From NCBI RefSeq assembly GCF_014062315.1, contig NZ_JACGLT010000003.1:1-64000 (forward strand): 64,000 bases of DNA, written 5' to 3'. The DNA is from Gelidibacter maritimus (GTDB taxonomy: Bacteria; Bacteroidota; Bacteroidia; Flavobacteriales; Flavobacteriaceae). Position numbers and translations under genes: made by a program. This document shows, one piece after another, positions 2,169 through 25,735 of this stretch (the stretch's first letter is position 1; every line of letters starts with the position of its first letter). The notes beneath the pieces are model-generated. The model was not told where the DNA came from and made no database searches. It was given only the letters and a program-made list of their open reading frames with translations.

Positions 2169-2233
2169 TAAGGTTTCCAGTACATTAGATTCAACTTAAT
2201 GTGTATCTTGAAGCAATTAAAATTGAAAATATC

Positions 2234-6832: not shown

Positions 6833-6880
6833 AAAAACTTACAAGTTTGTTGACTTGAAATTAAACCTTTTAAATTTTAA

Positions 6881-7126
6881 ATGATGGCACTTCAATGTAT
6901 TACATTGACCAAACAAAATAATGATTGGTTAGAAAAGCAAGTAGATGCGCAAGAATTTCTCAGCAAAAGTGAAGGGGTAAATTATTTAATTAATCAAGCA
7001 CGAGAGAAACAAGAATACGACGATTTTGTTCAAATAAAAATTAACAAAGGCTTGAAAAGTGGCTATACAAAAAAGCAGACAAGAGAAGAGATGTTGGCTG
7101 AAATTAAGAGTAATTTGAAATTTTGA
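6881..7126 (+). CDS. ParD/RHH-like small protein (orphan antitoxin-like)
   Basis: An 81-residue protein encoded 48 bases after cas9 on the same strand. Its layout resembles ParD-type ribbon-helix-helix antitoxins: a short N-terminal strand (ITLTKQNNDWLEKQV), a helical stretch with SKSEGVNYLINQAREKQ, and a charged C-terminal tail (KINKGLKSGYTKKQTREEML) like the toxin-binding tail of ParD. No ParE-like toxin gene follows, only the array leader. The role here is unknown. It could be a solitary antitoxin, a DNA-binding regulator of the CRISPR locus, or a relic. The second codon is also ATG, so the start could be 6884. Confidence 0.6.
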   Translation: MMALQCITLTKQNNDWLEKQVDAQEFLSKSEGVNYLINQAREKQEYDDFVQIKINKGLKSGYTKKQTREEMLAEIKSNLKF

Positions 7127-7197
7127 TCGTTGTAAGATGGTAAGATTTTGCAAATAAAAGTTCTTTGACATAAATGGCTTTATCTTAAACAGCCAAG

Positions 7198-7250
7198 CCA
7201 CAACGAAAAATTGACGCTTTTTAATTTTTGTCAACGATTTTTCGTTGTGG
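7198..7250. repeat. Inverted repeat ending in a CRISPR-repeat fragment
   Basis: A 14-bp perfect inverted repeat (CCACAACGAAAAAT at 7198-7211; its complement at 7237-7250) sits between the ParD-like gene and the array. The right arm runs into GTTGTGGTTT (7244-7253), identical to the first ten bases of the CRISPR repeat. No T-run follows, so it is not a standard terminator. It may be a scar of an old repeat or a structured element at the array border. Confidence 0.6.
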
Positions 7251-7298
7251 TTTACAAACATATTATTCTAATATTATTTGAATGTTTGTGAATCTCCT

Positions 7299-9046
7299 TC
7301 GTCGATTTTATTGAAGATTAGAAGATACGATATTACCGTCAAGATGGTTTCGCAAGGACACGCCGTTGTGGTTTGACTAAAGATTAGAAGACACGATATT
7401 TTAAATATTTAATCGTAATAAAACTCGTACGTTGTGGTTTGATTAAAGATTAGAAGACACGATATTCTGTTTTATTGAACAGCAATCCAATGTCCGTTGT
7501 GGTTTGATTAAAGATTAGAAGACACGATATTTTCTGTCAGCCGTAGGCTTTGGATGATGTCGTTGTGGTTTGATTAAAGATTAGAAGACACGATATTGAT
7601 TTAGGAATTGTTACCTGCTTTAAACCGTTGTGGTTTGATTAAAGAATAGAAGACACGATATTATATCTAACAAAGTCATTTAGGTACTTTGTGTTGTGGT
7701 TTGATTAAAGATTAGAAGACACGATATTTATTCCCGCAACTCTTAAACCTTCTAATTTGTTGTGGTTTGATTAAAGATTAGAAGACACGATATTTCCTTC
7801 TCGTTTACACATGTTAAGACAGGCGTTGTGGTTTGATTAAAGATTAGAAGACACGATATTTAGACGTTTAAAGAATTATACAACGTTTGGGTTGTGGTTT
7901 GATTAAAGATTAGAAGACACGATATTGGAGTTTCGGAAGTGAAAAGAAATTAAGTTGTTGTGGTTTGATTAAAGATTAGAAGACACGATATTTGTAGTTA
8001 TACTGGCTTCGAGTTGGAAAGTGTTGTGGTTTGATTAAAGATTAGAAGACACGATATTACAATGCTGTTATCTGTGATGTAGTAGCCAGTTGTGGTTTGA
8101 TTAAAGATTAGAAGACACGATATTACCTTGCCAAATGGACCACTCGTATCACGGTTGTGGTTTGATTAAAGATTAGAAGACACGATATTTGAAGCAGGAG
8201 GTTGAGCAGTATCTTAAGCGTTGTGGTTTGATTAAAGATTAGAAGACACGATATTCCTAATGAATATAAAAATATCAAAGTTACTGTTGTGGTTTGATTA
8301 AAGATTAGAAGACACGATATTAAGAATACACAGGAGATATTACAGCGGTTAGTTGTGGTTTGATTAAAGATTAGAAGACACGATATTGTTTCGGGTTCAA
8401 CTCTTAAAGCAATCGTTGTTGTGGTTTGATTAAAGATTAGAAGACACGATATTGCATTGGCAGAGGGCACATCCTTGACCGATGTTGTGGTTTGATTAAA
8501 GATTAGAAGACACGATATTATGGTCTGTAAGTTTTAGCCGCCCGGCATTGTTGTGGTTTGATTAAAGATTAGAAGACACGATATTGGACGAAAATAAGAT
8601 AGGTGTGTTTAACGCGTTGTGGTTTGATTAAAGATTAGAAGACACGATATTACAACAAAAACTTTGCTGTCGTCATCCAGGTTGTGGTTTGATTAAAGAT
8701 TAGAAGACACGATATTGAGGAAGATGATTTGATTGCTGGGTATATTGTTGTGGTTTGATTAAAGATTAGAAGACACGATATTTGAGTCCGACGAGCGCCG
8801 TACATCGCTGTTGTTGTGGTTTGATTAAAGATTAGAAGACACGATATTCAAGTTGGGCCATTAATTCAGCTTCTTCTTGTTGTGGTTTGATTAAAGATTA
8901 GAAGACACGATATTAACGCAACGGTTAAAGAATTAGCCGAGTCTGTTGTGGTTTGATTAAAGATTAGAAGACACGATATTCCTCAATACTAACGTCAAAC
9001 GTCAAAATCAGTTGTGGTTTGATTAAAGATTAGAAGACACGATATT
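7299..9046 (+). CRISPR. Type II-C CRISPR array, 27 repeats and 26 spacers
   Basis: The repeat is 36 bp, begins GTTGTGGTTTGATTAAAG and ends GACACGATATT. Spacers are 29-30 bp. The first unit (7299-7334) is degenerate: its left seven bases are mostly lost and there are scattered changes. Repeat 2 (7365) has one T-to-C change and repeat 6 (7627) one T-to-A. All repeats further right look identical. This puts the old end at the left and the growing end at the right, beside cas2/cas1. Pairing with the tracrRNA shows transcription left to right, so new spacers would join at the downstream end. Each repeat holds TTTG and, 21 bases later, TATT at its last four bases. That can form part of a TTG/TAnnTTTG promoter running into the spacer, which would fit repeat-borne promoters as described for other II-C arrays (inference). 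Confidence 0.97.
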
Positions 9047-9101
9047 AGTTGGTCTTGTACCTTCTGATAGTCATGTGCTTAAAGCAAGATATCGTATAAG
9101 A
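9047..9101. promoter_or_regulatory. Array flank next to the youngest repeat (possible integration leader)
   Basis: This AT-rich stretch abuts the last intact repeat on the side where repeats are perfectly conserved and where cas2 and cas1 lie. If spacers are added at this end, the Cas1-Cas2 anchoring signal should be here. The element GCTTAAAGC (9078-9086) is palindromic. Assignment as leader is inference from repeat decay polarity only. Confidence 0.35.
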
Positions 9102-9149
9102 AAATGCTTCTTTTTTGCAGTGATAAGGCAAGATTGAGGCATTTTTTTG
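9102..9149 (+). terminator. Terminator downstream of the array
   Basis: Plus-strand stem AAATGCTTC (9102-9110) pairs with GAGGCATTT (9136-9144) with one G-U pair. It is followed directly by a T-run. This would end the crRNA precursor before the convergent cas2 gene. Confidence 0.5.
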
Positions 9150-9151
9150 TT

Positions 9152-9481
9152 TTAAAATAACTCCAGTTGTGTGGGTAATGGCTCTTTTGGGACTTCGGCG
9201 CGTCCCCAAAAGTTCATAATATTGCCAAATTGTTTATCGGTAATTCGGAGGACGCTCACTTTCCCTAAAGGAGGTAATAGGCGTTTAATACGTTTTTCAT
9301 GCACATCAGCACTTTCGCTACTGGCACAATGCCGCATATAAACTGAGTATTGCATCATAGTGAAGCCATCTTTTAATAGGTTTTTTCTAAAGCCTGCAGC
9401 ATTTCGTCGGTCCTTGGGCGTTTCAGTTGGTAAATCAAAAAATACAAATAACCACATAATTCTATAACCGTTTAGTTCCAT
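9152..9481 (-). CDS. cas2: Cas2, CRISPR adaptation protein
   Basis: A 109-residue Cas2 that would act with Cas1 in spacer integration. The N-terminal strand YRIMWLFVFFDLPTETPKDRRNA carries the conserved Asp after FF. It is followed by FRKNLLKDGFTMMQYSVYMRHC, the typical Cas2 core, and KVSVLRITDKQFGNI near the C-terminus. Its ATG overlaps the end of cas1 by about ten bases, so the two are translationally coupled. The pair is transcribed toward the array, opposite to cas9. This convergent arrangement differs from the usual collinear cas9-cas1-cas2 order. Confidence 0.94.
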   Translation of the reverse strand: MELNGYRIMWLFVFFDLPTETPKDRRNAAGFRKNLLKDGFTMMQYSVYMRHCASSESADVHEKRIKRLLPPLGKVSVLRITDKQFGNIMNFWGRAEVPKEPLPTQLELF

Positions 9482-10355
9482 AATTTTGGATATTTAATTT
9501 TCTTTCTTTCACCAGTGTAACATTGTTGAAGTGAACTGGCTGTTTTTTGAAGGCCAACCATTAAAGGGCTTTTTTCGTTTTTGAAATAAACGGTTCGCGT
9601 CAGCACCTGAAGCAATTCGGATTTTATCTCTGTGGTCAAATCTTGCTCATCATAATGTTGCATGATGAAATGAACAGCTTCATCTACGGCCGGCCGAAAA
9701 GGTTCCATAATATCATCGGCCAGAGCAAATGCGTTGTACTTACTTTTATGATGTATGCCCAATGTATTCAGTAATCCACTTCCGGATAATGCTCTTGCGG
9801 TTGCTGCACGTAAAATAGCATATCCGTAATTGAGAAAATTATTAGGGTAATTGCCAAATCGTTCTCTTTTAAAATCGATGTTAAAAAACGATTTCCAATA
9901 AAAATTAGCGGCTACGGCCTCCATATTTGTAGAATCTCCGCTTAAGACTTTGCTCTCCAAAAATTCGAACGAATTTTTTTTATTTGTTATTTTCTCTAAT
10001 AGAATGCCTTGATTTCTGATTTTTTCCTTGATGGTCTGTTGCCACAATTGTTTTTTAAAGGTAAACTAGCGGCTATTTGATATTTGAAAATTTCTTGTTG
10101 TATATGATGACTGTTGAGGTTGAGAAGCATTCCATTTGGAAGATGTTTGTCATCGCAGATAATACAAGCACAATTATTATTAATTAATTTATTAAGCGCG
10201 GGAATACTTATATATACTTCATTATGATCAATAACGACATAACCGATATCTTCTATTGGAATAGTTCTGTTTATACTGTCTGAAGTGATTACAAGCTGCT
10301 CATTAGCGGTAGTTATGGCGCATTTGTTTGCAAAGAACAATGTTTTTTTTAGCAT
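9472..10355 (-). pseudogene. cas1: Cas1, split by a one-base frameshift at an A-run
   Basis: The integrase of spacer acquisition, in two frames. The first 119 codons (10355 to 9996) give MLKKTLFFANKCAITTANEQ and continue to AASLPLK, then run into an unrelated tail and stop. The rest (LWQQTIKEKIRNQG onward, to KYPKLWN at 9472) is in the -1 frame. It carries the catalytic regions, with Glu in NMEAVAANFYWKSFF and His/Asp in LGIHHKSKYNAFALADDIMEPFRPAVDE. The break lies at six A residues (minus strand; 10051-10056 on plus). A seventh A would restore a normal Cas1 of about 294 residues. The zero-frame sequence there is A-AAA-AAC, a known -1 slippery heptamer, so ribosomal frameshifting could also yield full-length protein. 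Sequencing error in the homopolymer or true inactivation are the alternatives. Confidence 0.88.
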
Positions 10356-11019: not shown

Positions 11020-12579
11020 ATGAAAACCAAAATTTTAACTTCACTGTTAGTCACCTTCTTAATGTTCACGAGTTGTAGTAATGACGACGACGCTGCTATG
11101 ATCCAAGAAACGGGAGAGCGCAAAACCTATTCTTTAATGGCTGTTTCCGATCCGTCAATTTCAGGAATGGTCACGTTTGTAAAGAACACCGATAATTCAA
11201 CTACTGTAAAAGTAGATTTGGATGGGACCTCATCAGGAATGCATCCGGCCCACATTCACATTAATACGGCTGCCGAGGGTGGTGCTATTGCCATTAGTTT
11301 AGAGCCAATAAATGGGGCTACGGGCATGAGTTCTACAACCTTTAGTACAAAGGATGACGGCACACCGATTAGTTACGAACAGCTATTGGATTTTAATGGC
11401 TATGTCAATGTGCACAAAAGTGCCGACGATCTTGGAACCTTGATTGCTCAAGGCGATATCGGTCAAAACGAATTGACCACTATGTCCAAAACCTATGCCT
11501 TAGGCTCTAAATCAGATCCAAGTATTATGGGCGATGCCAAATTCACAAAACGCGTTAACGGCACCACATTGATTGAGATCATGTTGGAGGGTACGTCTGC
11601 CGGTGATGAGCATCCAGGACATATTCACATGAATACTGCCGCTGAAGGTGGAGACATTGCCGTAACCTTTACCCCGTTAGACGGAGCAACTGGGATGAGT
11701 AAAACGCAGGTTGCAATGTTGGCTGATGGGACAGCAATTTCTTATGATGAACTTTTAGATTATAACGGATACATCAATATTCACAAAAGTGCCGACGATC
11801 TTGGAACCTTGATTGCTCAAGGCGATATCGGCCAAAACGAATTGACCACTATGTCCAAAACCTATGCCTTAGGCTCTAAATCGGATCCAAGTATTATGGG
11901 CGATGCCAAATTCACAAAACGCGTTAACGGCACCACATTGATTGAGATCATGTTGGAGGGTACGACTGCCGGTGATGAGCATCCAGGACATATTCACATG
12001 AATACTGCCGCTGAAGGTGGAGACATTGCCGTAACCTTTACTCCATTAGACGGCGCTACAGGTATGAGTACAACGCAGGTTGCTATGTTGGCCGATGGGA
12101 CAGCCATTACCTATGACGAACTGTTAGAATTTGATGGGTATATCAATATTCACAAAAGTGCCGACGATCTTGGTACCTTGATTGCTCAAGGTGATATCGG
12201 TCAAAACGAATTGACCGGCGAAGCTAAAGCATACACTTTGGTTACGGTTGGCAGTTCTGGTGTTGACGGTGAGGCCACGTTTTATGAGAGAACAAATGGT
12301 GAGGCTTTATTGGTTATTGCCGTGATGGGAACCATGAACGGAAACAGTCATCCGTCTCATATCCATATCGGCGATATTAATAATCCTGGTGCTATTGCGG
12401 TAAGCCTTAATCCTGTGGATGGAGATAGTGGCATGTCTATGACAAATATTGCTAAATTGGATGATGATAGTGTATTTGGCTATGAAGACGTATTAACTTA
12501 TAACGGCTATATTAACGTCCATAAAAGCGCTGCAGAATTGGATGTTTTATTAACCCAAGGAAATATTGGTGTCAACTAA
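11020..12579 (+). CDS. Lipoprotein with four tandem CHRD domains
   Basis: An exported 519-residue lipoprotein: hydrophobic N-terminus with lipobox FTSC and Cys19, then an Asp-rich spacer. Four CHRD-type units of about 123 residues follow. Each has an HP-x-HIH motif (PAHIHIN, PGHIHMN twice, PSHIHIG), a GA-TGMS segment, and an NGYxNxHKSADDLGTLIAQGDIG block. CHRD domains take their name from chordin, and their bacterial function is not well known. The HxH motifs suggest possible metal binding (inference). Units 2 and 3 are almost identical at DNA level with a 369-base period (11471 and 11840), a sign of recent duplication or gene conversion. The gene stands alone with its own terminator. It likely sits on the periplasmic or surface face of the envelope. 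Confidence 0.82.
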   Translation: MKTKILTSLLVTFLMFTSCSNDDDAAMIQETGERKTYSLMAVSDPSISGMVTFVKNTDNSTTVKVDLDGTSSGMHPAHIHINTAAEGGAIAISLEPINGATGMSSTTFSTKDDGTPISYEQLLDFNGYVNVHKSADDLGTLIAQGDIGQNELTTMSKTYALGSKSDPSIMGDAKFTKRVNGTTLIEIMLEGTSAGDEHPGHIHMNTAAEGGDIAVTFTPLDGATGMSKTQVAMLADGTAISYDELLDYNGYINIHKSADDLGTLIAQGDIGQNELTTMSKTYALGSKSDPSIMGDAKFTKRVNGTTLIEIMLEGTTAGDEHPGHIHMNTAAEGGDIAVTFTPLDGATGMSTTQVAMLADGTAITYDELLEFDGYINIHKSADDLGTLIAQGDIGQNELTGEAKAYTLVTVGSSGVDGEATFYERTNGEALLVIAVMGTMNGNSHPSHIHIGDINNPGAIAVSLNPVDGDSGMSMTNIAKLDDDSVFGYEDVLTYNGYINVHKSAAELDVLLTQGNIGVN

Positions 12580-12790: not shown

Positions 12791-13411
12791 TTAGTTATCA
12801 AATCGTTGTAAATGTAAGATGTCAATTTTTGATTTATCGTTCCGTGAGCGCACCAAGATGGTAAAATAATGTTGTTCTACATTATCATAATCTGCTCCAG
12901 CGCTGTAGCTAAGCGGTTTCACATCTATCATGGTATGCCAATTGCCGTCAGCATTGGCCTTTACGGGTCTCCAGTCTTCAATTACCTTACTGTAATAACG
13001 ATTGGTATCGGTATAGTTATCAACCGTCCTTTTTCCTGATTGCACTCTAATTTCAATCCATTGGCGTTTGTTTGTACGACCTTTTACGGTTATTTTTCCA
13101 TTCAACCCTTCGCCTACCGAGAGATTGCTTTTTGGTGATGTAATGGCTACGTAAACTGCTTCCGTTGTTGGCGTGATGACTTGTTCTCCCGTAATGGGGT
13201 CAATGCGGCCATGCTTTACACGTTCTTTAATTGGGGTCACCTTGGCTTTAGACCGTGGTATCACCTTCATTTCCTCCATAGTCTTGGCTTTTTTGGTTTT
13301 TTCTACCTTGACTTTTTGTTCCACCTTTTGCTTTGAGGTTTTCTGTGCGTATAATTGAGAGGTCATTACCATCAATACTACTGTTGCTGTCATTAATAAT
13401 TTAATTTTCAT
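12791..13411 (-). CDS. Exported protein with one Ig-like module
   Basis: A 206-residue protein with a signal peptide (cleavage expected after QLYA, before Q23), then a Lys-rich linker of about 50 residues. A motif IDPITGEQ follows, then a single beta-sandwich-like module (ITSPKSNLSVGEG to HLQRF). The module is clearly related to the C-terminal third of the 416-residue protein at 17169-18419: both contain ITSP-SNL, TVKGR, EIRVQ(S/T)G, VI-DW and end LVR-K-I-LHL. It has no known enzymatic motif. It is the last gene of the exported-protein block, 206 bases after the tail-sheath-like gene. A structural or binding role at the cell surface or periplasm is likely. Function is unknown. Confidence 0.7.
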   Translation of the reverse strand: MKIKLLMTATVVLMVMTSQLYAQKTSKQKVEQKVKVEKTKKAKTMEEMKVIPRSKAKVTPIKERVKHGRIDPITGEQVITPTTEAVYVAITSPKSNLSVGEGLNGKITVKGRTNKRQWIEIRVQSGKRTVDNYTDTNRYYSKVIEDWRPVKANADGNWHTMIDVKPLSYSAGADYDNVEQHYFTILVRSRNDKSKIDILHLQRFDN

Positions 13412-13617
13412 AAACTGTTGTTTTAATTAATATTCTATGTTAATCGATGTGTTTGCTTTAACTGAAAGCAAGTCGGTTTTCTATGCTCATGCCAGCTTTT
13501 GGTCAAAATGCAAAATTTTTGGCGCAGTCAGTTTTTTTTTAATTATTGACTCTTGACATCTCACATGTTGTTAATAAAGTGGTATCACAAATCAAGCGTT
13601 AATGGACGGCGTTCTAA

Positions 13618-15186
13618 TTAATTGTCGTGCATATCTTGAGAAATCCTTAACAACGAGAATTCTGCTGGTCTCGATGGTGATATCCCGATGTCTACAATCA
13701 TCTTTCCGTTATTTACATCGTGTTCTGTCATGGTTTCATTCAGACCCACCCTTACAAAATAAGCCTGTTCTGGTTTAGCACCCATTAATGCGCCCGCTCG
13801 CCAGAGCTCGATGAGGTAATTTGTGATCATTGCTTTCACATTGCTCCACGTTGCAGGGTTGTTTGGCGCATTTTTAAATTGTGCCAGAGCATTTTTTACT
13901 GAGGTTTCAATGGTCATGCCCATTCGCATCACAGGAATATAGCGCCATTCGTAATCATTGCTGGCCAATGTGCGGGCACCCCAAACCATAACCCCTTTGC
14001 CTTTAAAACTTCTAATGGCATTAATGGATTTTCCTGAGCTGTCAACATTAAGATTGGCCTGAGCATTGTTATCAATGGCTAGTGTTGGTGCTGTAACCTT
14101 ATTCAGGGATATATTGGCTGGTGCTTTCCAAACGCCTCTGGAGGCATCAGCCTTGGCGTAAACACCAGCAACAGCTGCACTGGGCGGTAATTTGAGATGG
14201 ATTGTATTGATCCTCTGTTTTATCTGTTGGTATTGTGTTCTATAATTTCCATTATCAGCGTGATATAAAGAGGTCTCAGCTTTGCTTGGATCTCTTGCAA
14301 TGAGGTCTTCAGGATGCTTCAACACCATGGTTTTATTGTTTTGATTTAGCTTTACTTGAATCTTATCTTCAGAAATATGGTAATTAAGGGTTGTTTGCAA
14401 GGATGGAAAGTAAGCCGCTCCATATTTAAGATTTTCGGTCCCCATCGAGAATCGGAATTTTTCTACCGAATCTGAAATATCACTATTTGATTCTTTGACA
14501 TCGCAGATCAGAAAACGATCCTTTCTTTCGGCACATTGGGCAAGTGCGGTCTTATAGACTTCGGCTGGGTCTCCAATGTTTTCAGAACTGCTGATATCCG
14601 GAAACAGAATCAAGGTTGGTATGTCTTCGTTTTCCAGCAATGCTAAACCCGACATAAAGTCTTCATTTTGTATGAGATTATCATAATGGCCAACCGAGGT
14701 AATGAAACAATCGTCACCGCCATTGGCAAAAAAAAGTTCCAACATATAGTACATCTTGTATTTTGGAGTAGTCAATAGCTCTGGGGGAATGATGCTTCCG
14801 TCATTGGTTATCTGAAACACACCTAAATCAGCTGGGTTAGCGCCACCAAATTTAGATATATACTCCTGCATAGAACGGATCCGTGTTGGGCTATTGGAGC
14901 CTTTTTCAGTATACCCTATAAAAGCAGGAATAGACGTCTCCACTTGTGTAATTGAAGGGATGGCACTTGAAACTTCTTGAACATAAACGCCTGGAGTGCT
15001 TCTGTTTTTATGAGCATTGCTCCCTTTGTTATCCTTACTAACCTTAGGCATCTTCTTTAGCCGTTTGTGAGGTAGGCTACGTTCTGTTTTTGTCTTTCGA
15101 TTTGTGATCTTGTTTTTAACCTGTGAGAAAGATCCATAGGAAAAAATGAAAAGAAGGATAATACAAAAAAGGTGTGTTTTGTTCAT
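13618..15186 (-). CDS. Phage/eCIS tail-sheath-like protein with an N-terminal signal peptide
   Basis: This 522-residue protein is a tail-sheath homologue from residue ~64 onward. PGVYVQEVSSAIPSITQVE (65-83) and IPAFIGYTEKG are the standard sheath N-terminus. The middle has a domain with LALLENEDIPTLILFPD, KDRFLICDV and YGAAYFPSL. The C-terminal domain (~395-520) has KGVMVWGARTLAS, EWRYIPVMRMGMTIETS, ELWRAGALMG and YFVRVGLNETMTEHD. Sheaths normally polymerise in the cytoplasm around a tube. Here residues 1-21 form a credible Sec signal peptide (cleavage SFS-Q22), then a Lys-rich linker, as in neighbouring exported proteins. An internal ATG at residue 46 (15051) would give an ordinary sheath start, so the longer start needs proof. 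No tube, baseplate or ATPase genes are in the window. A terminator upstream suggests its own promoter. Confidence 0.85.
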   Translation of the reverse strand: MNKTHLFCIILLFIFSYGSFSQVKNKITNRKTKTERSLPHKRLKKMPKVSKDNKGSNAHKNRSTPGVYVQEVSSAIPSITQVETSIPAFIGYTEKGSNSPTRIRSMQEYISKFGGANPADLGVFQITNDGSIIPPELLTTPKYKMYYMLELFFANGGDDCFITSVGHYDNLIQNEDFMSGLALLENEDIPTLILFPDISSSENIGDPAEVYKTALAQCAERKDRFLICDVKESNSDISDSVEKFRFSMGTENLKYGAAYFPSLQTTLNYHISEDKIQVKLNQNNKTMVLKHPEDLIARDPSKAETSLYHADNGNYRTQYQQIKQRINTIHLKLPPSAAVAGVYAKADASRGVWKAPANISLNKVTAPTLAIDNNAQANLNVDSSGKSINAIRSFKGKGVMVWGARTLASNDYEWRYIPVMRMGMTIETSVKNALAQFKNAPNNPATWSNVKAMITNYLIELWRAGALMGAKPEQAYFVRVGLNETMTEHDVNNGKMIVDIGISPSRPAEFSLLRISQDMHDN

Positions 15187-15360
15187 AATTCATTGTCGTT
15201 TTTGATGATTATACTCGCATTTCTATAGCTTGCTTCGAATTCCACTTCCAAATGTCGTCATCATCTCTGATAGCCCTACGGGATAAGGACACTCCGCCAA
15301 ATTTCACTTTTTCGTTTAAGGTTCTGTTTTTCGTTTTATCAAGCACCTATTCGAATACTT

Positions 15361-15399
15361 CAAAAACCCTTCAGATCTTTACTATCTGGAGGGTTTTGA
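15361..15399 (-). terminator. Terminator between the 549-residue protein and the sheath-like gene
   Basis: Minus-strand hairpin AACCCTCCAGAT / ATCTGAAGGGTT with T-run. It ends the upstream transcript, so the sheath-like gene likely has a separate promoter in 15187-15360, where I find no exact TAnnTTTG. Confidence 0.6.
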
Positions 15400-15421
15400 A
15401 TAGAGGAGATGATTAATTGTT

Positions 15422-17071
15422 TTAGTCAACGAGTTCAAAACGCATCCAAACAAAAGCTTTTCTATTGTTATGAGCGTTTCTCATGCGGCCTCGAATAGGT
15501 CCCTCTAAAATTGTCCTTCCTGAATAACTCACCTTTCTAAGAGGTAAGGATGCATTGTCAAAATTATCAAATTTCAAGGATTGACTCACATCACCATCAA
15601 AATATGTATGGGATGCATTTAAGTCCTTAGTGCCATTTAAAATGGCAAGAACGTCGTAGATGGCAACTCTCATTTTTCGAGGATCTTTGTTGAGTACATT
15701 ATCATAATCTTCTCTTACTAAAATATTGGATAGTGTTGTACTACTGTATTCTTTAATCCAGGTGTCTATTGTGAATTCGGCATTCCTGTCATTGGCTTCG
15801 TCAGGGGTAATTTCAAAAATAACAGAGTTGTTGATATTTGGCGACCGTCTATCAGTTACTTTTGATTCTTGTACTTGAATTTGCCTATCTCTATTGCCGC
15901 AAATCAGAGCTGTTGACCCCGCCCAATAACTATTTTGGTCTCCCGGTTTACATTTTCTATTGTTACGAAACTTTTTGATGTCCCTGCTAATCGGACTTTT
16001 TATCTTTCCATTAGCCTTATATTTCACATGCTGCGTGATGCCATAATCATCTATTTTATCGTCATCTTTTGATACTGCACATTGAATTTCAAGCAAGGTT
16101 ACTTTTAATTTCACATTAGGAATGGGTTTCCACATCGTCTTGGTGGTTGGTTCAGAATAAATGGTTCTGGTTGCTTTGTTACCTACTTCCTTACCATTTT
16201 CTTTTCGTACTGCTGTGATATCGTGAGTCACCTTACCATCTGCTTTGTCCACCTTTATAGAATAGAGCTTAACCCTGCCCCATTCGCCTTTGTTGTCTGT
16301 AGATAGATTGGTTTTTGTTCTTTTTGTAATCGCCTCGCCATTTTCTTTATAGGTAGTTGTTATCATGAGTTCGATATCACTATTCCTTTTGGCGGTGCCC
16401 CCAAATACAACGGGAATTTTGGTGAATGATGAAATTTGCGGTGGAGAAATGATGCGTGTTTCTGTATCCTCAAGATCTAAATTGAGGGTGTTGCCAACAT
16501 CTAATTTCTTATCTACTTTTACTGGCGTCTTCATTTTTGCAGGCTGTTTAACCAGGCGCCGCTCAACCTTGGATGATGGGACTTCTTGAGGCACCAAGGT
16601 GAGCTTTGGATTGAGTGCCCTGAATTTCTTTTCAGTCATCTCCACTCGAGAAATCATTTGAATGGGCTGATTGGTTGAAACACTGATTTTCTTTTCACTA
16701 TCGGTCCTTGAATTATCTGTAACTATAATTTCAAAACGGAGATTTTTTGAGCCCTCTGGAGCCCACAAATTAACAGGCGTACTTTGCCATTTCCCATTGT
16801 TGCTGGCTGTTGCTGTAAATGTACCCAAGCCTTGATCTCCACCACTGTAAATTGCCTTAACCTTTATGGAAACGGTTGTTTCTTTTGGCGCTGTACCAGA
16901 AATAGTCAAGGGTGATGAGACTTTTGACTTGTTCTTGGGAGAGGTGATAGAAAGGTCAATACTATTTCGGAATTTAACTTGCGCTTTTTTGCCCCTAATT
17001 ACTTGAGCATGAAAGGGCGTTGAGGCCATTAGGAAAAAATAGACTCCTAAGAATAAAATTGCTTTTTTCAT
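15422..17071 (-). CDS. Exported protein with two Ig-like modules and a novel C-terminal domain
   Basis: A 549-residue protein with a signal peptide (cleavage after PFHA, before Q23). Module 1 (~residues 36-125) has ITSPKNKSKVSSPLTISGTA and a NLWAPEGSKNLRFEI segment. Module 2 (~205-305) has ISPPQISSFTKIPVVFGGTA. Both are close to modules in the next gene (17169-18419). The last ~230 residues (from WKPIPNVKLKVTLLEIQC) form a different domain with three Cys (C-x-V-S, KCKPGD, ICGNRD) that I do not recognise. Proteins with such PLTI-GTA modules usually act as adhesive or structural parts outside the cytoplasm. It is co-oriented with its paralogue, 97 bases apart, and is followed by a terminator. 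Confidence 0.7.
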   Translation of the reverse strand: MKKAILFLGVYFFLMASTPFHAQVIRGKKAQVKFRNSIDLSITSPKNKSKVSSPLTISGTAPKETTVSIKVKAIYSGGDQGLGTFTATASNNGKWQSTPVNLWAPEGSKNLRFEIIVTDNSRTDSEKKISVSTNQPIQMISRVEMTEKKFRALNPKLTLVPQEVPSSKVERRLVKQPAKMKTPVKVDKKLDVGNTLNLDLEDTETRIISPPQISSFTKIPVVFGGTAKRNSDIELMITTTYKENGEAITKRTKTNLSTDNKGEWGRVKLYSIKVDKADGKVTHDITAVRKENGKEVGNKATRTIYSEPTTKTMWKPIPNVKLKVTLLEIQCAVSKDDDKIDDYGITQHVKYKANGKIKSPISRDIKKFRNNRKCKPGDQNSYWAGSTALICGNRDRQIQVQESKVTDRRSPNINNSVIFEITPDEANDRNAEFTIDTWIKEYSSTTLSNILVREDYDNVLNKDPRKMRVAIYDVLAILNGTKDLNASHTYFDGDVSQSLKFDNFDNASLPLRKVSYSGRTILEGPIRGRMRNAHNNRKAFVWMRFELVD

Positions 17072-17168
17072 GATTAATATATTGTTATAATGATTATTTT
17101 ATAGGATAACATTTCACTTGAAGACTTCAGAATCCAATTCATAAAAATGGACCTGATGGAATATTTCC

Positions 17169-18419
17169 TTATCGTCTCAAATGCAATACTGTAATTTCAG
17201 ACGGGTTTCTTTTATCGCGAACCAATACGGTGAGTTTGTACTCTTTTTGTGATGCACGGCCGTTATTGGTTTTTGGTGTTCCTGTATTTAACTGTGTGCT
17301 CCAATAGCCTCTGGAATCTACAGAAACTGAGGTCCAATCTTTAATCACCCTCCCGTTGTTCTGTTGCTGATAGTTTCCAGCACTGCCTTGCCCTGTTTGT
17401 ACGCGGATTTCCAAAGTGTGGTTTTTCATTGCGCGTCCCTTGACCGTAAATGGTGATCTCACTTTTTCGCCTTGATAAAGATTACTCTCTGGTGAGGTTA
17501 TCTTCAGTCCCAATTTTTCTTTGGCTTGCGAGTTGACCGTTACCGAGGCTTTATTCCCTTGTTCTGAATTGTTGACAACCCTGACTGCCGTAATCTCAAG
17601 AGTGACATTGTCATCGGCGGCGTCCGCTTGAATGGAATAAAGTTTGCCAGATTTCCACTGACCATTGGCGTCTGTTGATGCATTTAATTCTGTGCTTTGC
17701 CTAATGTCCTGACCGTATTGTGTGTAATGGCGATTAATAACAATTTTAACCTCACTGTTTTTTTGTGCAGTTCCAGTGATTATCAATGGAAAGTCAACAT
17801 TGGTATTACTGGTTGGCGAGGTGATATATGTATTGGGTATGTTGCTTGACGGTCTTTGAGGGCGTTGATGTCCAGTTATGGGATCAATTGGGCTCTGAGT
17901 TACTCTTTCTGGCATCTCAGTCAACTGAGGATTGAGTTCTTTTATCTTCTTCGCCGTCATTTCCACACGTTCAATTCTTTGGATATTGCTGGTAGGAGAA
18001 ACGATTATTTTTTTTGAATTTGGTTTCCTTAAGCGTTTCATCTTCGATTTCTCTACCACTGATTCTGAAGCCATGATTTCAAATTTTAAGTTATTTACGC
18101 CCTCTGGAGCCCACAGATTGATAGGTGTGCTTTGCCAAATTCCATTGCGGTTGGAGGTTATTTCAAATGTCCCCAAATCTTGATCGCCTTCCGCGAAGGT
18201 GGCTTTGACGTTGAGGGTTACCTTGGCGTTTTTTGAAGCCGTACCGGCAATGGTAAGCGGTGAAGAAACCTTGGCATTATTTTTTGGAGAAGTAATGGAC
18301 AGCTCAGCGCTGACGTTTTTTGGAGATTTGATAGTTTTGCCTAAAGTTCTTTGCGCATACATCTGGGTGGAGATGATTAAGAACACAAATGATGCTAAAG
18401 TTAAAATTGGTTTTTTCAT
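17169..18419 (-). CDS. Exported protein with three Ig-like modules
   Basis: A 416-residue protein with a signal peptide (cleavage after QMYA, before Q23). Three beta-sandwich-like modules follow. Module 1 (~38-130) has LSITSPKNNAKVSSPLTIAGTASKNAKV. Module 2 (~195-295) begins ITSPTSNTNVDFPLIITGTAQKNSEV. Module 3 (~305-416) is TVKGRAMKNHTLEIRVQTG and ends LHLRR. A linker around residue 180 holds PIDPITGHQRPQRP, echoing IDPITGEQ in the 206-residue protein at 12791. Modules 1 and 2 match those of the 549-residue neighbour, and module 3 matches the 206-residue protein, so the three genes share a domain pool. A surface or periplasmic scaffold role is inferred. No enzyme motif is seen. Confidence 0.72.
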   Translation of the reverse strand: MKKPILTLASFVFLIISTQMYAQRTLGKTIKSPKNVSAELSITSPKNNAKVSSPLTIAGTASKNAKVTLNVKATFAEGDQDLGTFEITSNRNGIWQSTPINLWAPEGVNNLKFEIMASESVVEKSKMKRLRKPNSKKIIVSPTSNIQRIERVEMTAKKIKELNPQLTEMPERVTQSPIDPITGHQRPQRPSSNIPNTYITSPTSNTNVDFPLIITGTAQKNSEVKIVINRHYTQYGQDIRQSTELNASTDANGQWKSGKLYSIQADAADDNVTLEITAVRVVNNSEQGNKASVTVNSQAKEKLGLKITSPESNLYQGEKVRSPFTVKGRAMKNHTLEIRVQTGQGSAGNYQQQNNGRVIKDWTSVSVDSRGYWSTQLNTGTPKTNNGRASQKEYKLTVLVRDKRNPSEITVLHLRR

Positions 18420-18577
18420 GATATATGGGTTTAGGTGTTACTGTTTATTTTGGGGTAATCCCTGATTAAGTTTTTTTAATTTGAAGCGGTTATGATGTGT
18501 TTAGTCGGTTATTGATCAGTCGGTTTTTTATGTATTTAGAGATAATTTGAATATGCTTTTAGCTTTTGAAAAAGGTT

Positions 18578-19072
18578 TTAATCCACTCGCATAAAAACAA
18601 AAACCAAGACTTCTGGGCCCGATGCTGTGCCTTGATATCTCTCGCGTCTTGCCGCCTCTGGAATCTCTTCAAGCTTTAGGGTTGTTTGGTTAATTTGAAT
18701 GATCCTGAATTCTCTAATCGGCGGGAACGGACTGTCTTGATAGGGTCTGCTGTCGGACAAATCAATTTTTAAAGTATTGCCTTCCACATGGTATTGTCCA
18801 ATGAAATATTGATAGATGGCGCAATGGTCATCGTACCAGCGTAAATTCATTTTACCGTCTGACGAAAAGCGCAACTGATCACTGTTTCTATGGCATACAT
18901 TCTGATAATTGTAAAGCCGCTCATTAGAGCCATTGATAATGGTGCCCGTTTTTACAAAGGCCCAATCACCCCAAAGACTTCCTGGCAAAGGTTGTTGCAA
19001 GGTGACACAACTCATGGTCATGCTACAAATGCTTAGAACTAAAATGAGGTTTCTAAATTTTATGTCTTTCAT
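18578..19072 (-). CDS. Lipocalin-like lipoprotein
   Basis: A 164-residue lipoprotein: hydrophobic N-terminus with lipobox MSC (Cys22). The mature part looks like a small beta-barrel of the lipocalin-like type: GSLWGDWAFVKTGTI, QLRFSSDGKMNLRWYDDHCAIYQYFIGQYHVEGNTLKIDL, then FRIIQINQTTLKLEEI. These 'W-F-G-Y-G-L-I' patterns are common in Bacteroidota lipocalin_4 or META-like proteins. The ligand is unknown. It starts 22 bases after the end of the preceding lipoprotein gene, so the two are almost certainly in one operon. Confidence 0.62.
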   Translation of the reverse strand: MKDIKFRNLILVLSICSMTMSCVTLQQPLPGSLWGDWAFVKTGTIINGSNERLYNYQNVCHRNSDQLRFSSDGKMNLRWYDDHCAIYQYFIGQYHVEGNTLKIDLSDSRPYQDSPFPPIREFRIIQINQTTLKLEEIPEAARRERYQGTASGPEVLVFVFMRVD

Positions 19073-19094
19073 TAGGTGTTTGTTTTTGGGGTCA

Positions 19095-19712
19095 TTATAA
19101 ATAATTTGGAACTTTCACCACCACACGACCTTTAATTTGGGAGATGTTCTCTTCATAATCTTCAAACTGACCGTCAAACACTAAGGTATAGCCTAAGGAG
19201 CCACCTTCATGACTCTTTAAGCCGTAAGTGATATTGGATAATTTGATTTCGCCAGACATACTATTCTGTACGTCAGAGGAAGGCGGTGCGATTGAAATAA
19301 TCAGATTGGATTTTTCTTCAGAATCATCTTCTGAACCATCAAATAAGTCGGCAACGGAACCATCGGCATTTTGAAAAAGGAGTCCGTGAAGGAGTATATC
19401 GTCATTGCCTATTCGTAAAACAATGCCCTTACCATTTTCAGTATTGCTATAGGCTGAAAAGTTGTTCATGCTGCCTGCATCTGTTGATACATTTTTAATG
19501 TCTCCCTTTAAGTGGCGTTCGTTGGCACTTCCTGGATTTATGGTAATATCATAGGTGTGATTTTCGCTTTGCGCATCCTCTTGACGTTCTTGGACAGGTG
19601 TTTCAGAAGCCTCTTCAACCGTATCTTTTGATTTATTGTTATTGCCACAACCAAAGACCAATGTAAGACAGATGAGAAGTAGGAGGGGCGTTGTTTTTTT
19701 AAAGTTGTTCAT
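19095..19712 (-). CDS. Lipoprotein of unknown function
   Basis: A 205-residue lipoprotein with lipobox VFGC (Cys22) and a low-complexity spacer rich in Asn, Lys, Glu and Asp (about residues 23-52). The mature domain has alternating beta-strand patterns (HTYDITINPGSANERHLKGDIKN, GKGIVLRIGNDDILLHGLLF, LGYTLVFDGQFEDYE). These suggest an all-beta fold that I cannot place. An acidic segment (DLFDGSEDDSEEK) resembles a similar one in the 328-residue exported protein at 25736. It is upstream of, and coupled by 22 bases to, the lipocalin-like gene. Confidence 0.6.
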   Translation of the reverse strand: MNNFKKTTPLLLLICLTLVFGCGNNNKSKDTVEEASETPVQERQEDAQSENHTYDITINPGSANERHLKGDIKNVSTDAGSMNNFSAYSNTENGKGIVLRIGNDDILLHGLLFQNADGSVADLFDGSEDDSEEKSNLIISIAPPSSDVQNSMSGEIKLSNITYGLKSHEGGSLGYTLVFDGQFEDYEENISQIKGRVVVKVPNYL

Positions 19713-19816
19713 GGTTATTTTGTTTCATTATTAAAAATTAATTCTGAGGTGTTTAGGTTGTGTTAAGTCAATTCATCGCTTATATAATTTTGGAAGGGTG
19801 TAAATTTCAAATCGGT

Positions 19817-21028
19817 TTATAGCTTTTTGGCATCCCAACCAGTTTTTGTGGCTTCGTCATCACAGTAGCCCCATCGGCCTTCAAAGTCGGTAAAATCTTC
19901 ATTGAACTTAAGCACCAAAGAGCCCCAGTTTTTTCTGCCGTAAATGTCTGTTTTACATTTTTTAGCCGAGCCATTTTCAACCCACTGTCCAACCATGGTA
20001 TGGGAATCGGTCATTTTTCCTAAAATTTCGCCACCATCGTTTTCATACCAACCGGCAATGACATCTCCATATTTATAGATACGGAGATTTCCCTCTGCGG
20101 TTGTTTTCCAAGTTCCTACAACACCTTTTTGCTCTATTTCGTTGTTTTGGAAAACAATGAGCTCTACTCTTCTGTTTTTCGCGCGTCCTTCTTCCGTAGT
20201 ATTATCGGCAACGGGATTTGTTTGTCCAAGCGCTTTGGTTTCAATGCGGTTGCGGTCAATTCCAATGGTTTCAATCAAATAAGTTTTTACCGCATCCGCT
20301 CTGTTTTTGGATAGTGTCAAATTACTTTCAGCCGAACCGACATTATCGGTATAACCTTCAATAAGCACCATGCCGTTGAGCTCTTTTATTTTTTCGGCCA
20401 TGTCAGCCAACTCCTGTGTGTCTTCTTTAAGCGTGTATTTTCCGGTATCAAACGATACTGCCGCATTTAACTGAAAATTGATACTAGAGCCAATAGCGCC
20501 TATGGCATCAATATCAGCACCGGGCCATTTGCCGCTCTTTTTTTCTTTAACATCTACCACTTTGACATACCTAAACACATCCGATTTTTCAACATAGTCG
20601 GCAATGTCAATCGCCGAAAATCCGCCACCGGTACGCCCTACAGAAATCCATGCTTCGCCATCTTTGGAGATGTAGGCATCAACAGGTTCGGTTAATGCCC
20701 CTATTTCCAAGATAAATAAATCAGGACCTTCAATGTCGTATAGCACGTTATCGGTAAATTTCACAACCAACTCTCCGCCATAGCCCAGGGTGCAAAAGTT
20801 GCTGTAAGGTGAGGTTTTAGAATCTGGAATGCCAAGGGCTTCCTCTGGACCAAAGCCTTCAATCGGGCTTGGATTGCCAACCTTGAAACTGACCACTTCA
20901 TCGGCAAAGGATATGTCGCCATAAGGGAAAAACACCCTGTTTCCGTGACCGTCGGGATAGGTTCTTCCTATTTGAGAGTAACATAATGCCGAGATCATGA
21001 GCATCAATGAAGTTATAATATATTTCAT
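19817..21028 (-). CDS. OmpA-domain envelope protein
   Basis: A 403-residue protein with a signal peptide (cleavage after LCYS, before Q20). Residues ~45-180 look like a beta-sandwich recognition domain (GYGGELVVKFTDN, GPDLFILEIG, YISKDGEAWISVGRTGG, DIDAIGAIG) found in surface proteins. Residues ~185-297 are an OmpA C-terminal peptidoglycan-binding domain: VSFDTGKYTLKED, IEGYTDNVGS, NRADAVKTYL, and RAKNRRVELIV. That order carries the conserved Asp and Arg used to bind diaminopimelate. Residues ~300-403 are a further beta domain (VGTWKTTAEGNLRIYKYGD). It would anchor the surface complex to the cell wall. It is 41 bases downstream of the small barrel gene, in the same operon. Confidence 0.82.
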   Translation of the reverse strand: MKYIITSLMLMISALCYSQIGRTYPDGHGNRVFFPYGDISFADEVVSFKVGNPSPIEGFGPEEALGIPDSKTSPYSNFCTLGYGGELVVKFTDNVLYDIEGPDLFILEIGALTEPVDAYISKDGEAWISVGRTGGGFSAIDIADYVEKSDVFRYVKVVDVKEKKSGKWPGADIDAIGAIGSSINFQLNAAVSFDTGKYTLKEDTQELADMAEKIKELNGMVLIEGYTDNVGSAESNLTLSKNRADAVKTYLIETIGIDRNRIETKALGQTNPVADNTTEEGRAKNRRVELIVFQNNEIEQKGVVGTWKTTAEGNLRIYKYGDVIAGWYENDGGEILGKMTDSHTMVGQWVENGSAKKCKTDIYGRKNWGSLVLKFNEDFTDFEGRWGYCDDEATKTGWDAKKL

Positions 21029-21069
21029 CTTATTTTGATTTTGAGCTTGATTTTTTACATTTTTAAATT

Positions 21070-21600
21070 CTAAATATTGAATTTAACTCCAGCTGCAATA
21101 ACCAATTGTCCGCCGTCAATAATGACGTATTTGAGTTCAGCAAAGGGCATTATGCCACTGTTGCTTATATACATTTTGGCACCTGCACCTAGATTAAGGC
21201 CAAACCTTCCATCGCTGGCACTATAGCTTCCAGGAAGTTCTTCATAACCAGCTCCGTCATATTTAGCTTTTACGCTGCTATAGTTTAAACCGGCAAGCCC
21301 ATAGACATGAAATTCCCCGTCGTTTACAAAGTAATAATTGGCATTTCCGTTGACTTCAAACCAGTTGACCTTAATTGGTCCTTCTGTTTTTGGAAAATAA
21401 TAGATGAGACTTGGTGATATACTGAGGTTGTCGGCGATGCCAAACTCGGCGTTGGCCCCAATTCCAATATTTTCAATTTCAGTACCGTAGGCGAGCATGA
21501 CCCCAAGTCGGGTGTCAATTTCCTGCGCATTTGCAGTGGTCGAAAAGAAGCCAATAAAGGCTAAACTAAGGGTTGCAATAATTAATTTTTGAGTTTTCAT
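21070..21600 (-). CDS. Small outer-membrane beta-barrel protein
   Basis: A 176-residue protein with a signal peptide (cleavage after ANA, before Q26). The mature part has regularly alternating amphipathic strands (RLGVMLAYGTEIENIGIGANAEFGI, LSISPSLIYYFP, FEVNGNANYYFV, FHVYGLAGLNYS, FGLNLGAGAKMYI). It ends in LVIAAGVKFNI, a C-terminal aromatic-rich strand typical of outer-membrane insertion. About eight strands fit, as in OmpX/OmpW-size barrels. It precedes the OmpA-domain gene, and together they could form a membrane and cell-wall anchor pair. Confidence 0.75.
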   Translation of the reverse strand: MKTQKLIIATLSLAFIGFFSTTANAQEIDTRLGVMLAYGTEIENIGIGANAEFGIADNLSISPSLIYYFPKTEGPIKVNWFEVNGNANYYFVNDGEFHVYGLAGLNYSSVKAKYDGAGYEELPGSYSASDGRFGLNLGAGAKMYISNSGIMPFAELKYVIIDGGQLVIAAGVKFNI

Positions 21601-21704
21601 GAGTATTGATTTTAATTTAAAGAGTTATAATTTTGTGCAATAGTACGTTTGTGTAGAATTGGTATTAACGTTTGTTATAAGTTGTTCTTTCAGCCTCCTT
21701 CCGT

Positions 21705-21839
21705 TTAAGTGAGTTGCCTATTAAATTTGGAATTTGTTGTACCTGACGGAACCAGTTCAGGCGATTGAGCCATAAGATAGGTGACCAAAAACAAACTCAG
21801 AACTATGTACACTATGGTTTTAAGGTTTTTTGTTATCAT
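21705..21839 (-). CDS. Putative 44-residue exported peptide
   Basis: A short frame between two exported-protein genes, ATG at 21839, stop TAA at 21705. The product starts MITKNLKTIVYIVLSLFLV. It has one hydrophobic segment (residues 8-23) and a signal-peptidase site LMA-Q25. This leaves a mature peptide of about 20 residues beginning QSPELVPSGTT. It is on the same strand and within the same apparent operon as its neighbours, and the signal-peptide style matches theirs. It may be a genuine small secreted peptide. The alternative is the preserved head of a deleted larger gene. Confidence 0.5.
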   Translation of the reverse strand: MITKNLKTIVYIVLSLFLVTYLMAQSPELVPSGTTNSKFNRQLT

Positions 21840-21948
21840 ATTAATTAGTTGTTATTTCTTGGGATGCTTTAAGATCTTTCTTGGTTATCTGTGTGTCCAA
21901 TTATTCCAAAACTTGTTTATTCCACTTCATTTCTTTTAAATTTTACGT

Positions 21949-22482
21949 TTAAAGTTTATCAATAATAAGCTTCGCTAGAGCCAATGTTTGTGTCTTGTTG
22001 GAATCAGCATCCGCAGAGGTTCTTGCGTGTACGTGAATTAAATTACCCTTGTATAAAAAAGTAAGTTGGGTTTTTTTCGTGCTCCAGGTCGCCATATCAC
22101 CAATGTCATCAACGGATTCACCATCTTTATAATAAGATACAGAAGATTTATACTGTGCTTCTTTAATGTTAGAAACCTGTACAATGCTCATTTCGGCCGC
22201 ATAGTTTGCCATGTGGCCGTTCATCACTTCATAAGGCCAGGTGATAGATTCCCATTTGTAAAAACAGGTAGGAAAAGTGGTGTTTTTTTCTTTCATACTT
22301 GTTTCAGTTTCTGTAGGAATAGACAATGTGTTTTTGATTTCTGTTTCGGACAACAGTTCACAAGGCGATTGAGCGCGCGATTTATCTGAGCCATCCTGAA
22401 TTTTATCAGAATTGGATTTTTCAGAGTTTCCGCAAGCAAAGACACTTAATACAATGGCAATTAGGACTAATGATTTTTTCAT
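21949..22482 (-). CDS. Lipoprotein of unknown function
   Basis: The start at 22482 (MKKSLVLIAIVLSVFACGNSEK) is chosen over an upstream ATG at 22506, because it gives a compact lipoprotein signal with lipobox VFAC. The 177-residue product has a Ser/Asp-rich spacer. Its alpha/beta domain begins SPCELLSETEIKNTLSIP and continues with TFPTCFYKWESITW, VDDIGDMATWSTKKTQLTFLYKGNLIHVHA and a C-terminal helix. This pattern resembles the DUF3558-like or sensor-type lipoproteins in which CxLL...V and a later Cys form a pair, but I am not certain. It is the first recognisable gene downstream of the LytTR-type promoter at 22843-22932, after a long leader. Confidence 0.6.
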   Translation of the reverse strand: MKKSLVLIAIVLSVFACGNSEKSNSDKIQDGSDKSRAQSPCELLSETEIKNTLSIPTETETSMKEKNTTFPTCFYKWESITWPYEVMNGHMANYAAEMSIVQVSNIKEAQYKSSVSYYKDGESVDDIGDMATWSTKKTQLTFLYKGNLIHVHARTSADADSNKTQTLALAKLIIDKL

Positions 22483-22842
22483 TGTTTTCAATTTAATTAT
22501 TCGCAACTATTTGACGTTTTAATACAGGAAAATTGGTGCGCCAAGATGTCTTTTGCTCTATAGTTGCTTATAAATCAACAGGAGTTAGGGCACTATTTCT
22601 AAATTCAGTTAAGAATAGAGGTGGTGGTTAAATGGAATATATAGTGTTTCAATGGCATCATGGACGAGTTCATTTTTAAAGGTTTTAAAAATAACGAGCG
22701 TAAAGCATAGGCTTTTAACTCATTTCTTGAACTGGGGATTCAACTCTTAAATGCAATGGATAAGCTAATCGTCATTAATTTTGAAATTTAACGACAGTCA
22801 ATTTTTCATTTTTAGGAAATAAACTAAAATTAGTTATACCTG

Positions 22843-22872
22843 CAAATATAATGGACGTATTTTCTTACGCAA
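22843..22872 (-). promoter_or_regulatory. Promoter in front of the lipoprotein/OmpA operon
   Basis: On the minus strand TTG (22870-22872) is followed after 19 bases by TATATTTG (22843-22850), an exact TAnnTTTG match. The same geometry and much of the same spacer sequence recur at 26971-27000. Confidence 0.75.
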
Positions 22873-22880
22873 GACCAAGT

Positions 22881-22932
22881 CAGAATTTGGCAGTTCATAC
22901 TTAGTATTTGACAAGGTTGACTTAGAATTCAG
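22881..22932 (-). promoter_or_regulatory. Triple direct repeat with 21-bp period, likely LytTR operator
   Basis: Read on the plus strand, CAGAATTTGG (22881), TAGTATTTGA (22902) and TAGAATTCAG (22923) start exactly 21 bp apart. They lie just upstream of the minus-strand promoter at 22843-22872. A 21-bp spacing of short direct repeats is the mode used by LytTR proteins such as AgrA. The arrangement is repeated at 27009-27060 and, with two units, at 30052-30082. Confidence 0.7.
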
Positions 22933-23228
22933 TAAGAGGGATGTTTCAAAAAGAAGCTAATAAATTAACAAATACATAAAAGTGCGGTCTAGCACTATAA
23001 CATTATTGTCTGACTAACCAACGGTTCATACGCTGCTTCCGATTGGGATTCATATCAGCTACTTTCAGATGTCTTAACTACGAACTTCGCCCGAACAGCT
23101 TGTGGTTTTACACCAATAATATTGTGATTCCAAATTATTTTTACCAGTTAGTTCACAAAGCCGACTTTCAGTGTACAAGTATAAAACTGTCAATTTTCAA
23201 TGATCTGAACCCAGTTTTAGGATAGGGT

Positions 23229-24152: not shown

Positions 24153-24312
24153 TATTTATACTATATAGTTAAAGGTTAACATTCTGTTCCTTATCGAGAT
24201 TCATTTCAGTTTTTCTTTTTTGCCACGTCTAGATTAAAATTGAAATGGGTTATATGATTATTTTTTAATGCACAGTAATTATAAACTCTGAGCAGTGTTT
24301 TAATCATTATTC

Positions 24313-25659: not shown

Positions 25660-25735
25660 GTGTAATGGAGTTTATTGAGTTTTGTATCTTTTGTAATCAT
25701 TTTATATTCATTTATTTTGGACAGAAAAAACCCGC

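Follow-up and report, generated by a model that had tools for sequence, protein, structure and literature searches.

The window analysed here, the first 64 kb (64,000 nucleotides) of contig C23 in the 4.7-Mb, 70-contig draft genome of Gelidibacter maritimus (G000), encodes a 522-aa sheath protein whose reading frame, according to the ORF list, occupies exactly 13618-15186 on the minus strand and begins with ATG. The parts of the sheath gene and the genes discussed with it are as follows.

12791-13411, minus strand: gene immediately downstream of the sheath; its product, predicted to be exported, has a Lys-rich linker and is related to the Ig-like proteins (36% to 17169-18419 over 120 aa)
13618-14997, minus strand: sheath domains, residues 64-522 and the stop codon, with N-arm (~65-72), PF04984, PF17482 and C-arm (~506-519); Pfam, PDB sequence matches, AlphaFold (AF2) model, structural Z 41.8
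14998-15123, minus strand: predicted basic, disordered linker, residues 22-63, including the Met46 codon (15049-15051); K+R 11-15 of 41 in six orthologues, low pLDDT
15124-15186, minus strand: predicted signal peptide, residues 1-21, cut before Q22; N2, K3, S21 and Q22 invariant in 6/6, hydrophobic 12-mer, Q-rule
15422-17071, minus strand: next gene upstream of the sheath, for a predicted exported Ig-like protein; 42% to 17169-18419 over 316 aa, Ig matches below cut-off
17169-18419, minus strand: predicted exported Ig-like (Gmad2) protein, candidate associated gene; PF10648 above cut-off
18578-19072, minus strand: lipocalin-like lipoprotein; PF13648 just below cut-off, above it in the copy of genome G379; co-occurs with the exported sheath
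27221-27979, minus strand: LytTR-type response regulator about 12 kb from the sheath, in the shared locus; NCBIfam BtsR model matched below cut-off
27983-30007, minus strand: probably the sensor kinase that pairs with 27221-27979; copies with 71-74% identity accompany the 86-95% identical copies of that regulator

The sheath matches two Pfam families above their curated cut-offs, PF04984 (E 9.1e-10, residues 211-407; the one match to this family in G000) and PF17482 (E 3.7e-9, residues 410-515). Its closest solved sequence is the Anabaena injection-system (CIS) sheath All3325 (7b5h; E 2.3e-105, residues 63-521). An AF2 model built from 36 sheath sequences (mean pLDDT 82.8, pTM 0.77) has a helix at 3-14 and falls under pLDDT 50 at residues 11-74; it was substituted for a shallow model (7 rows, mean pLDDT 55.8) that was not used for searching. 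Structure prediction had been proposed in the first-pass annotation as a check on the protein, and the predicted fold matches eCIS sheaths, which are the best Foldseek matches (top E 6.5e-46); VIA-align superimposes the model on the AlgoCIS sheath with Z 41.8 and rmsd 2.1 over 402 residues, spanning model range 83-506, with both arms outside the matched range. The limits of the arms were placed by analogy with published sheaths. Domain sequence (PF04984 with PF17482) and fold (AF2 model) agree in placing the protein in the sheath family, as first annotated.

The N-terminus, MNKTHLFCIILLFIFSYGSFS followed after the predicted cut by QVKNK, is signal-peptide-like and leads into a Lys-rich tail (15 K+R and 2 D+E in 41 residues). 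The window sheath has five intact orthologues outside its species, some of them outside its genus (75, 71, 64, 58 and 56% identity to it), and with them makes up a set of six: the window, G. pelagius, G. japonicus, G379, Marixanthomonas spongiae and Xanthomarina sp. F2636L. The linker is basic in all six (K+R 11-15 of 41), and the sole invariant columns upstream of P65 are N2, K3, S21, Q22 and K54. The split copy of G. mesophilus begins likewise, with ...IYS before the predicted cut and Q after it. Gln after the cut is typical of substrates of signal peptidase I (SPI) in Bacteroidetes (the Q-rule), at a mean of 71% per species according to the available text of PMC5837995, and the predicted S21-Q22 site is conserved in 6/6. 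The signal peptide with its SFS-Q cut and the Lys-rich linker proposed at first pass are thus borne out among the orthologues. It had also been cautioned that an internal ATG at residue 46 would undo the export claim; this in-frame ATG exists (15051), but Met46 is found in only 2/6 intact orthologues against 6/6 for the cleavage site, and the start-codon question is settled because all the orthologues keep the signal peptide, whereas most lack Met46.

In a comparison of 64 sheath frames taken from the fetched loci, with some duplicates among them, the arm is preceded in frame by 61-80 residues, including a hydrophobic segment, in the 7 exported rows and by 6-36 residues in the others. The most hydrophobic upstream 12-mer scores 2.48-3.13 in the exported rows; the sole non-exported row of comparable hydrophobicity, L006/L014 (one gene), has its first start codon after that stretch. 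A search of sheath homologues for signal peptides, suggested at first pass, therefore finds one in the five intact orthologues and the split copy, and the comparison supports a type-I signal peptide with a basic disordered tail as a feature of the exported clade, absent from the other sheaths examined. That the sheath is a Sec-exported protein is well supported at the sequence level. The T9SS C-terminal sorting domain TIGR04183 (NCBIfam) was not matched in the window and Marixanthomonas sheaths in a search that was positive for L010:7983-9599, so the periplasm appears at least as likely a location as the cell surface.

A tree of 60 sheaths, built without signal and linker and with duplicate and incomplete frames omitted, unites the six exported proteins in one clade (support 100/100, present in all of 200 bootstrap trees). 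The nearest row is an eCIS sheath of G218 (L051:17451-18836; support 100/99, 51% identity), which belongs to an eCIS cluster that also encodes a second sheath, two tubes and a gp25 protein. A single origin of the exported sheaths appears well supported among the fetched loci, the only ones whose N-termini were examined; independent origins elsewhere are possible. Across the sheath region (residues 64-522), dN is 0.12-0.33 against a dS of 0.66 to saturated in 15/15 pairs, and purifying selection, averaged over these residues, is well supported in several genera of Flavobacteriaceae. The linker evolves faster than the sheath region by the same measure. For the 22 signal codons of the window and G. 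pelagius (dN 0.22, dS 0.16) no constraint is seen in a comparison with too few codons to judge, and the export claim accordingly rests on the invariant site.

The exported form occurs in 4/9 Gelidibacter genomes (one copy split), in 1/8 genomes of Xanthomarina's genus and in 1/18 of G379's, the query genome counted in each, and in 2/397 genomes of a family sample, judged by alignments from residue 1. In an order sample of 395 genomes, only the window's own row begins at model position 1 among the matches listed; a contig scan limited to close relatives returned 5 loci, all in the exported clade. Seven genomes have an exported sheath if the split G. mesophilus copy is counted, within a comparison set of 13, and the frame is intact in 6/7. 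The G. mesophilus gene is split over two contig ends (L012:1-1384 and L013:1-899), both adjoining what we take to be transposase-like sequence; an insertion element probably interrupts it, and since this copy is split the gene is dispensable there.

Around the sheath, all 12 minus-strand ORFs of at least 90 aa at 12791-26722 start with an SPI-type or lipoprotein-type signal; a script scored 11/12 as exported, and the twelfth, 17169-18419, was scored "other" although a ...QMYAQ site is visible. The first-pass statement that all neighbouring genes encode exported proteins holds for this run (12/12) but not beyond it, where cas-like genes and the response regulator lie. The genes towards 2201-10355 are presumably cas9, cas1 and cas2; the 1543-aa product of 2201-6832, which we take to be Cas9, has apparent repeated segments before its last part, and ORF 8123-8470 reads through a repeat-spacer-like array. 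Three stretches of the lipoprotein-like product of 11020-12579 match CHRD, and its internal repeats are almost identical. Promoter-like sites (9 against 17.3 expected, in a scan that does not cover Bacteroidota promoters) and terminator-like sites (9 against 6.7 expected) were uninformative.

The lipocalin-like lipoprotein (18578-19072) has 70-88% identical copies in G. pelagius, G. mesophilus, Marixanthomonas and G379, and lies directly before the sheath in the last two. It is present in 5/7 exported-sheath genomes (split copy counted) versus 0/6 others (two-sided Fisher p 0.021, on counts that are not independent, as the genomes share descent) and is missing from the sheath-bearing G. japonicus and Xanthomarina. 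In the family sample it is matched at 70% identity or more in 2/397 genomes, G000 and G379, whose sheaths both align from residue 1; three further family genomes match it at 29-34%. The Ig-like protein 17169-18419 is matched in 3/13 genomes, all with an exported sheath, and is absent from 4/7 sheath genomes. The downstream protein 12791-13411 has 13 K+R in 41 residues near its signal and no Pfam match.

The response regulator 27221-27979, which may have a regulatory role, is found at 86-95% identity in three other loci (G. pelagius, G. mesophilus, G379) and has a 34% match in Xanthomarina, where the 34-37% regulator/kinase pair may be coincidence; its probable sensor kinase partner (27983-30007) had no NCBIfam match. 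In G. japonicus (L011:10650-20000, L046:1-12508) the exported sheath stands apart from the shared locus and adjoins a LuxR-type regulator, a subtilase and a DUF6603 protein.

Pfam finds no AAA+ ATPase, spike or cap gene among the sheath and its 9 neighbours. The tube family PF06841 has no match in G000 (a 70-contig draft), G004 or the single-contig G379, in a search positive in 7/13 genomes, four of which (G003, G005, G402 and G403) have an exported sheath; the gp25 family PF04965 has none in any of the 7 exported-sheath genomes, in a search positive in G218 and G006. The reported lack of tube and baseplate genes nearby thereby extends genome-wide for PF06841 and PF04965, in a 70-contig draft, and the complete eCIS gene set that might have used this sheath conventionally is not found nearby, tube and gp25 profiles being without a match throughout G000.

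Marixanthomonas and Xanthomarina have a pair of tube genes, tube 1 being about 60% identical to tube 1 of the G218 eCIS, located either on a different contig from the sheath or some 48 kb away from it; both pairs (L069:9078-9994 and L068:10299-11190, respectively) belong to the G218 lineage, are without a visible CIS cluster and may, to judge from their sequences, be relics of the ancestral eCIS. The one tube present in each of G. japonicus, G. pelagius and G001 is of a different lineage and is 53-54% identical to the G006 tube. Tube genes were considered as sheath partners and rejected: G000, G004 and G379 have none and the tubes of the others belong to two lineages, and this variation among exported-sheath genomes means that tubes are not a constant partner. 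The orphan tubes examined begin without a signal peptide and so would sit in another compartment than the exported sheath. G001, of the same genus, also encodes a 713-aa CIS sheath fused to a C-terminal AAA+ ATPase (L006:1489-3630, plus strand; PF17482 above cut-off, PF04984 just below, PF00004 E 1.8e-24), with no CIS cluster among the surrounding ORFs.

We lean, by a small measure, towards reading the protein as an eCIS sheath exapted as an extracytoplasmic structural protein after leaving its injection system; judged from sequence, it is probably self-assembling and tube-less. The chain would cross the inner membrane unfolded via Sec, signal peptidase I would cut before Gln22, and the sheath domain would fold in the periplasm. 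There, adjacent subunits would be joined through their N- and C-arms, giving contracted-like rings or polysheath tubules that have no tube and in which the basic tails probably face the lumen, and the co-occurring lipoprotein and Ig-like proteins could hold these rings or tubules as an envelope scaffold or coat. In its most specific form, a free-standing sheath polymer in the periplasm or at the surface, tethered by the dedicated lipocalin-like lipoprotein, the proposal is tentative and falls somewhat short of an even chance.

Export is held to be much likelier than polymerization, for which the chances are close to balanced. Isolated sheath proteins of FV3, T4 and phiKZ form very stable tubes alone (PMC6357053, in the text available), and sheath subunits are held to one another by exchange of their N- and C-termini (PMC6088184 and PMC8894135, likewise in part). 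A polymer, for instance a surface filament or coat, is plausible by analogy: isolated sheaths of several phages self-assemble, and all six intact proteins retain the arm anchor residues. As for the first-pass interpretation as a whole, its export and the lack of a CIS around the gene hold up, while its polymer (surface filament or coat) is carried forward as a conjecture.

The strongest rival reading, to which we assign a distinctly smaller though appreciable probability, has the exported sheath domain as a soluble or lipoprotein-bound monomer that forms no polymer, for instance a binding module or envelope decoy. The diffocin sheath CD1363 is monomeric in solution when purified (PMC6088184, in the text available), which counts against a polymer. 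The arms point both ways: P65, Y68, P507, E509 and F510 are invariant in 36/36 aligned sheaths, the six intact exported proteins included, which speaks against a monomer, as does the purifying selection averaged over residues 64-522; but the N-arm varies in G379, with Glu in place of Gly66, and in the split G. mesophilus copy (outside the alignment), which has PEIL where others have PGVY and lacks Y68.

Conserved positions also bear on this rival. Of 114 positions at least 90% conserved in 53 other sheaths, 15 are changed in at least 3 of the 6 exported proteins, including 438-440 and the C-arm positions 511 and 515, and 82 are retained in all six; such changes favour a monomer in that they could mean weaker contacts. 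The stretches 144-163, 184-203, 424-463 and 484-523 are rich in substitutions at conserved columns. The count used 6 exported and 53 other rows, with L006 and L007 omitted; L009, which repeats the G006 sheath of L007 and diverges most of all rows (47 of 117), was kept. Five eCIS-type control clades lost 0, 1, 0, 1 and 2 conserved positions, and a sixth, diverged non-exported clade lost 29/138; as this last clade lost more, the loss is not specific to export. A loss of sheath-tube contacts at the attachment helix was considered as well and set aside without a tube-specific conclusion, given the greater loss in the diverged non-exported clade.

Three further readings compete much less well with an exapted, exported sheath. 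A functionless, decaying eCIS remnant with a fortuitous signal-like start would fit the split G. mesophilus copy and the tube genes scattered without gp25 in relatives, but is improbable in view of a core dN far below dS in 15/15 pairs, frames intact in 6/7 genomes and a cleavage site that is invariant despite a diverged linker. Slightly more improbable still is conventional use of the sheath in the cytoplasm, with translation starting at the in-frame ATG of codon 46 and with a dispersed CIS whose tubes lie elsewhere in 4/7 exported-sheath genomes (in Marixanthomonas and Xanthomarina with the resemblance to G218 tube 1 noted above): Met46 is kept in 2/6 proteins against 6/6 for the signal-peptidase site, tube and gp25 are missing from G000 and G379 and gp25 from 7/7, and the orphan tubes examined, having no signal peptide, would occupy a different compartment. 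A prophage or phage tail, suggested by the name of the sheath family and one distant IMG/VR match (32% identity), can practically be dismissed, because the closest PDB entries by sequence are eCIS/tCIS sheaths, the sister sheath is part of an eCIS cluster, the neighbours are envelope genes and the IMG/VR relative, in a pattern-limited scan, matches from residue 59 on only.

To our knowledge, sheath proteins are known only in contractile machines assembled in the cytoplasm, and we know of no other CIS sheath that is exported as cargo. The exported sheath resembles those of eCIS (AlgoCIS Alg2, Anabaena tCIS All3325, G218) in sequence, fold and arm anchor residues; unlike them, it carries a predicted signal peptide with a basic tail and lacks an adjoining CIS cluster as well as any tube or gp25 gene in G000, and the 438-440 motif and C-arm positions are changed in most exported members. 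It shares the sheath family with phage polysheath formers (FV3 gp053, T4 gp18, the phiKZ sheath), which assemble alone; for those phage proteins, solitary assembly was observed in recombinant or purified material, whereas here a lone sheath with an export signal is maintained. With Bacteroidota SPI (Q-rule) substrates it has in common a predicted cut before Gln and an invariant S-Q; here the cargo is a CIS sheath.

No exported sheath is announced in the titles and abstract openings of the open-licence papers listed by the literature searches. In a culture of Ca. Accumulibacter, the supernatant alone contained a tail sheath protein (PMC12019908), and a Streptomyces scabiei secretome table has a row for "phage tail sheath protein FI" (PMC4098958); the portions of these two papers available mention no signal peptide for either sheath, and lysis or released particles would explain their presence outside cells. 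In Cardinium the sheath is listed among AFP-like genes and, in the available part of the paper, is given no signal peptide (PMC5698495), and the terms "signal peptide" and "secreted" have 0 occurrences in a paper on sheath evolution (PMC9230969). A survey that, according to its available text, discarded loci without baseplate, tube or sheath-initiator genes (PMC12210884) would by this filter miss the exported sheath locus.

A selected, apparently Sec-exported, tube-less sheath would show that the fold is useful outside contractile machines. The exported sheath can serve as a natural test case for polymer formation by sheath proteins after Sec export, and as an entry point to what may be a new kind of envelope structure; if the proposal is true, the envelope of these Flavobacteriaceae would contain a class of filament unrelated to pili, flagella and S-layers, built from a weapon part.
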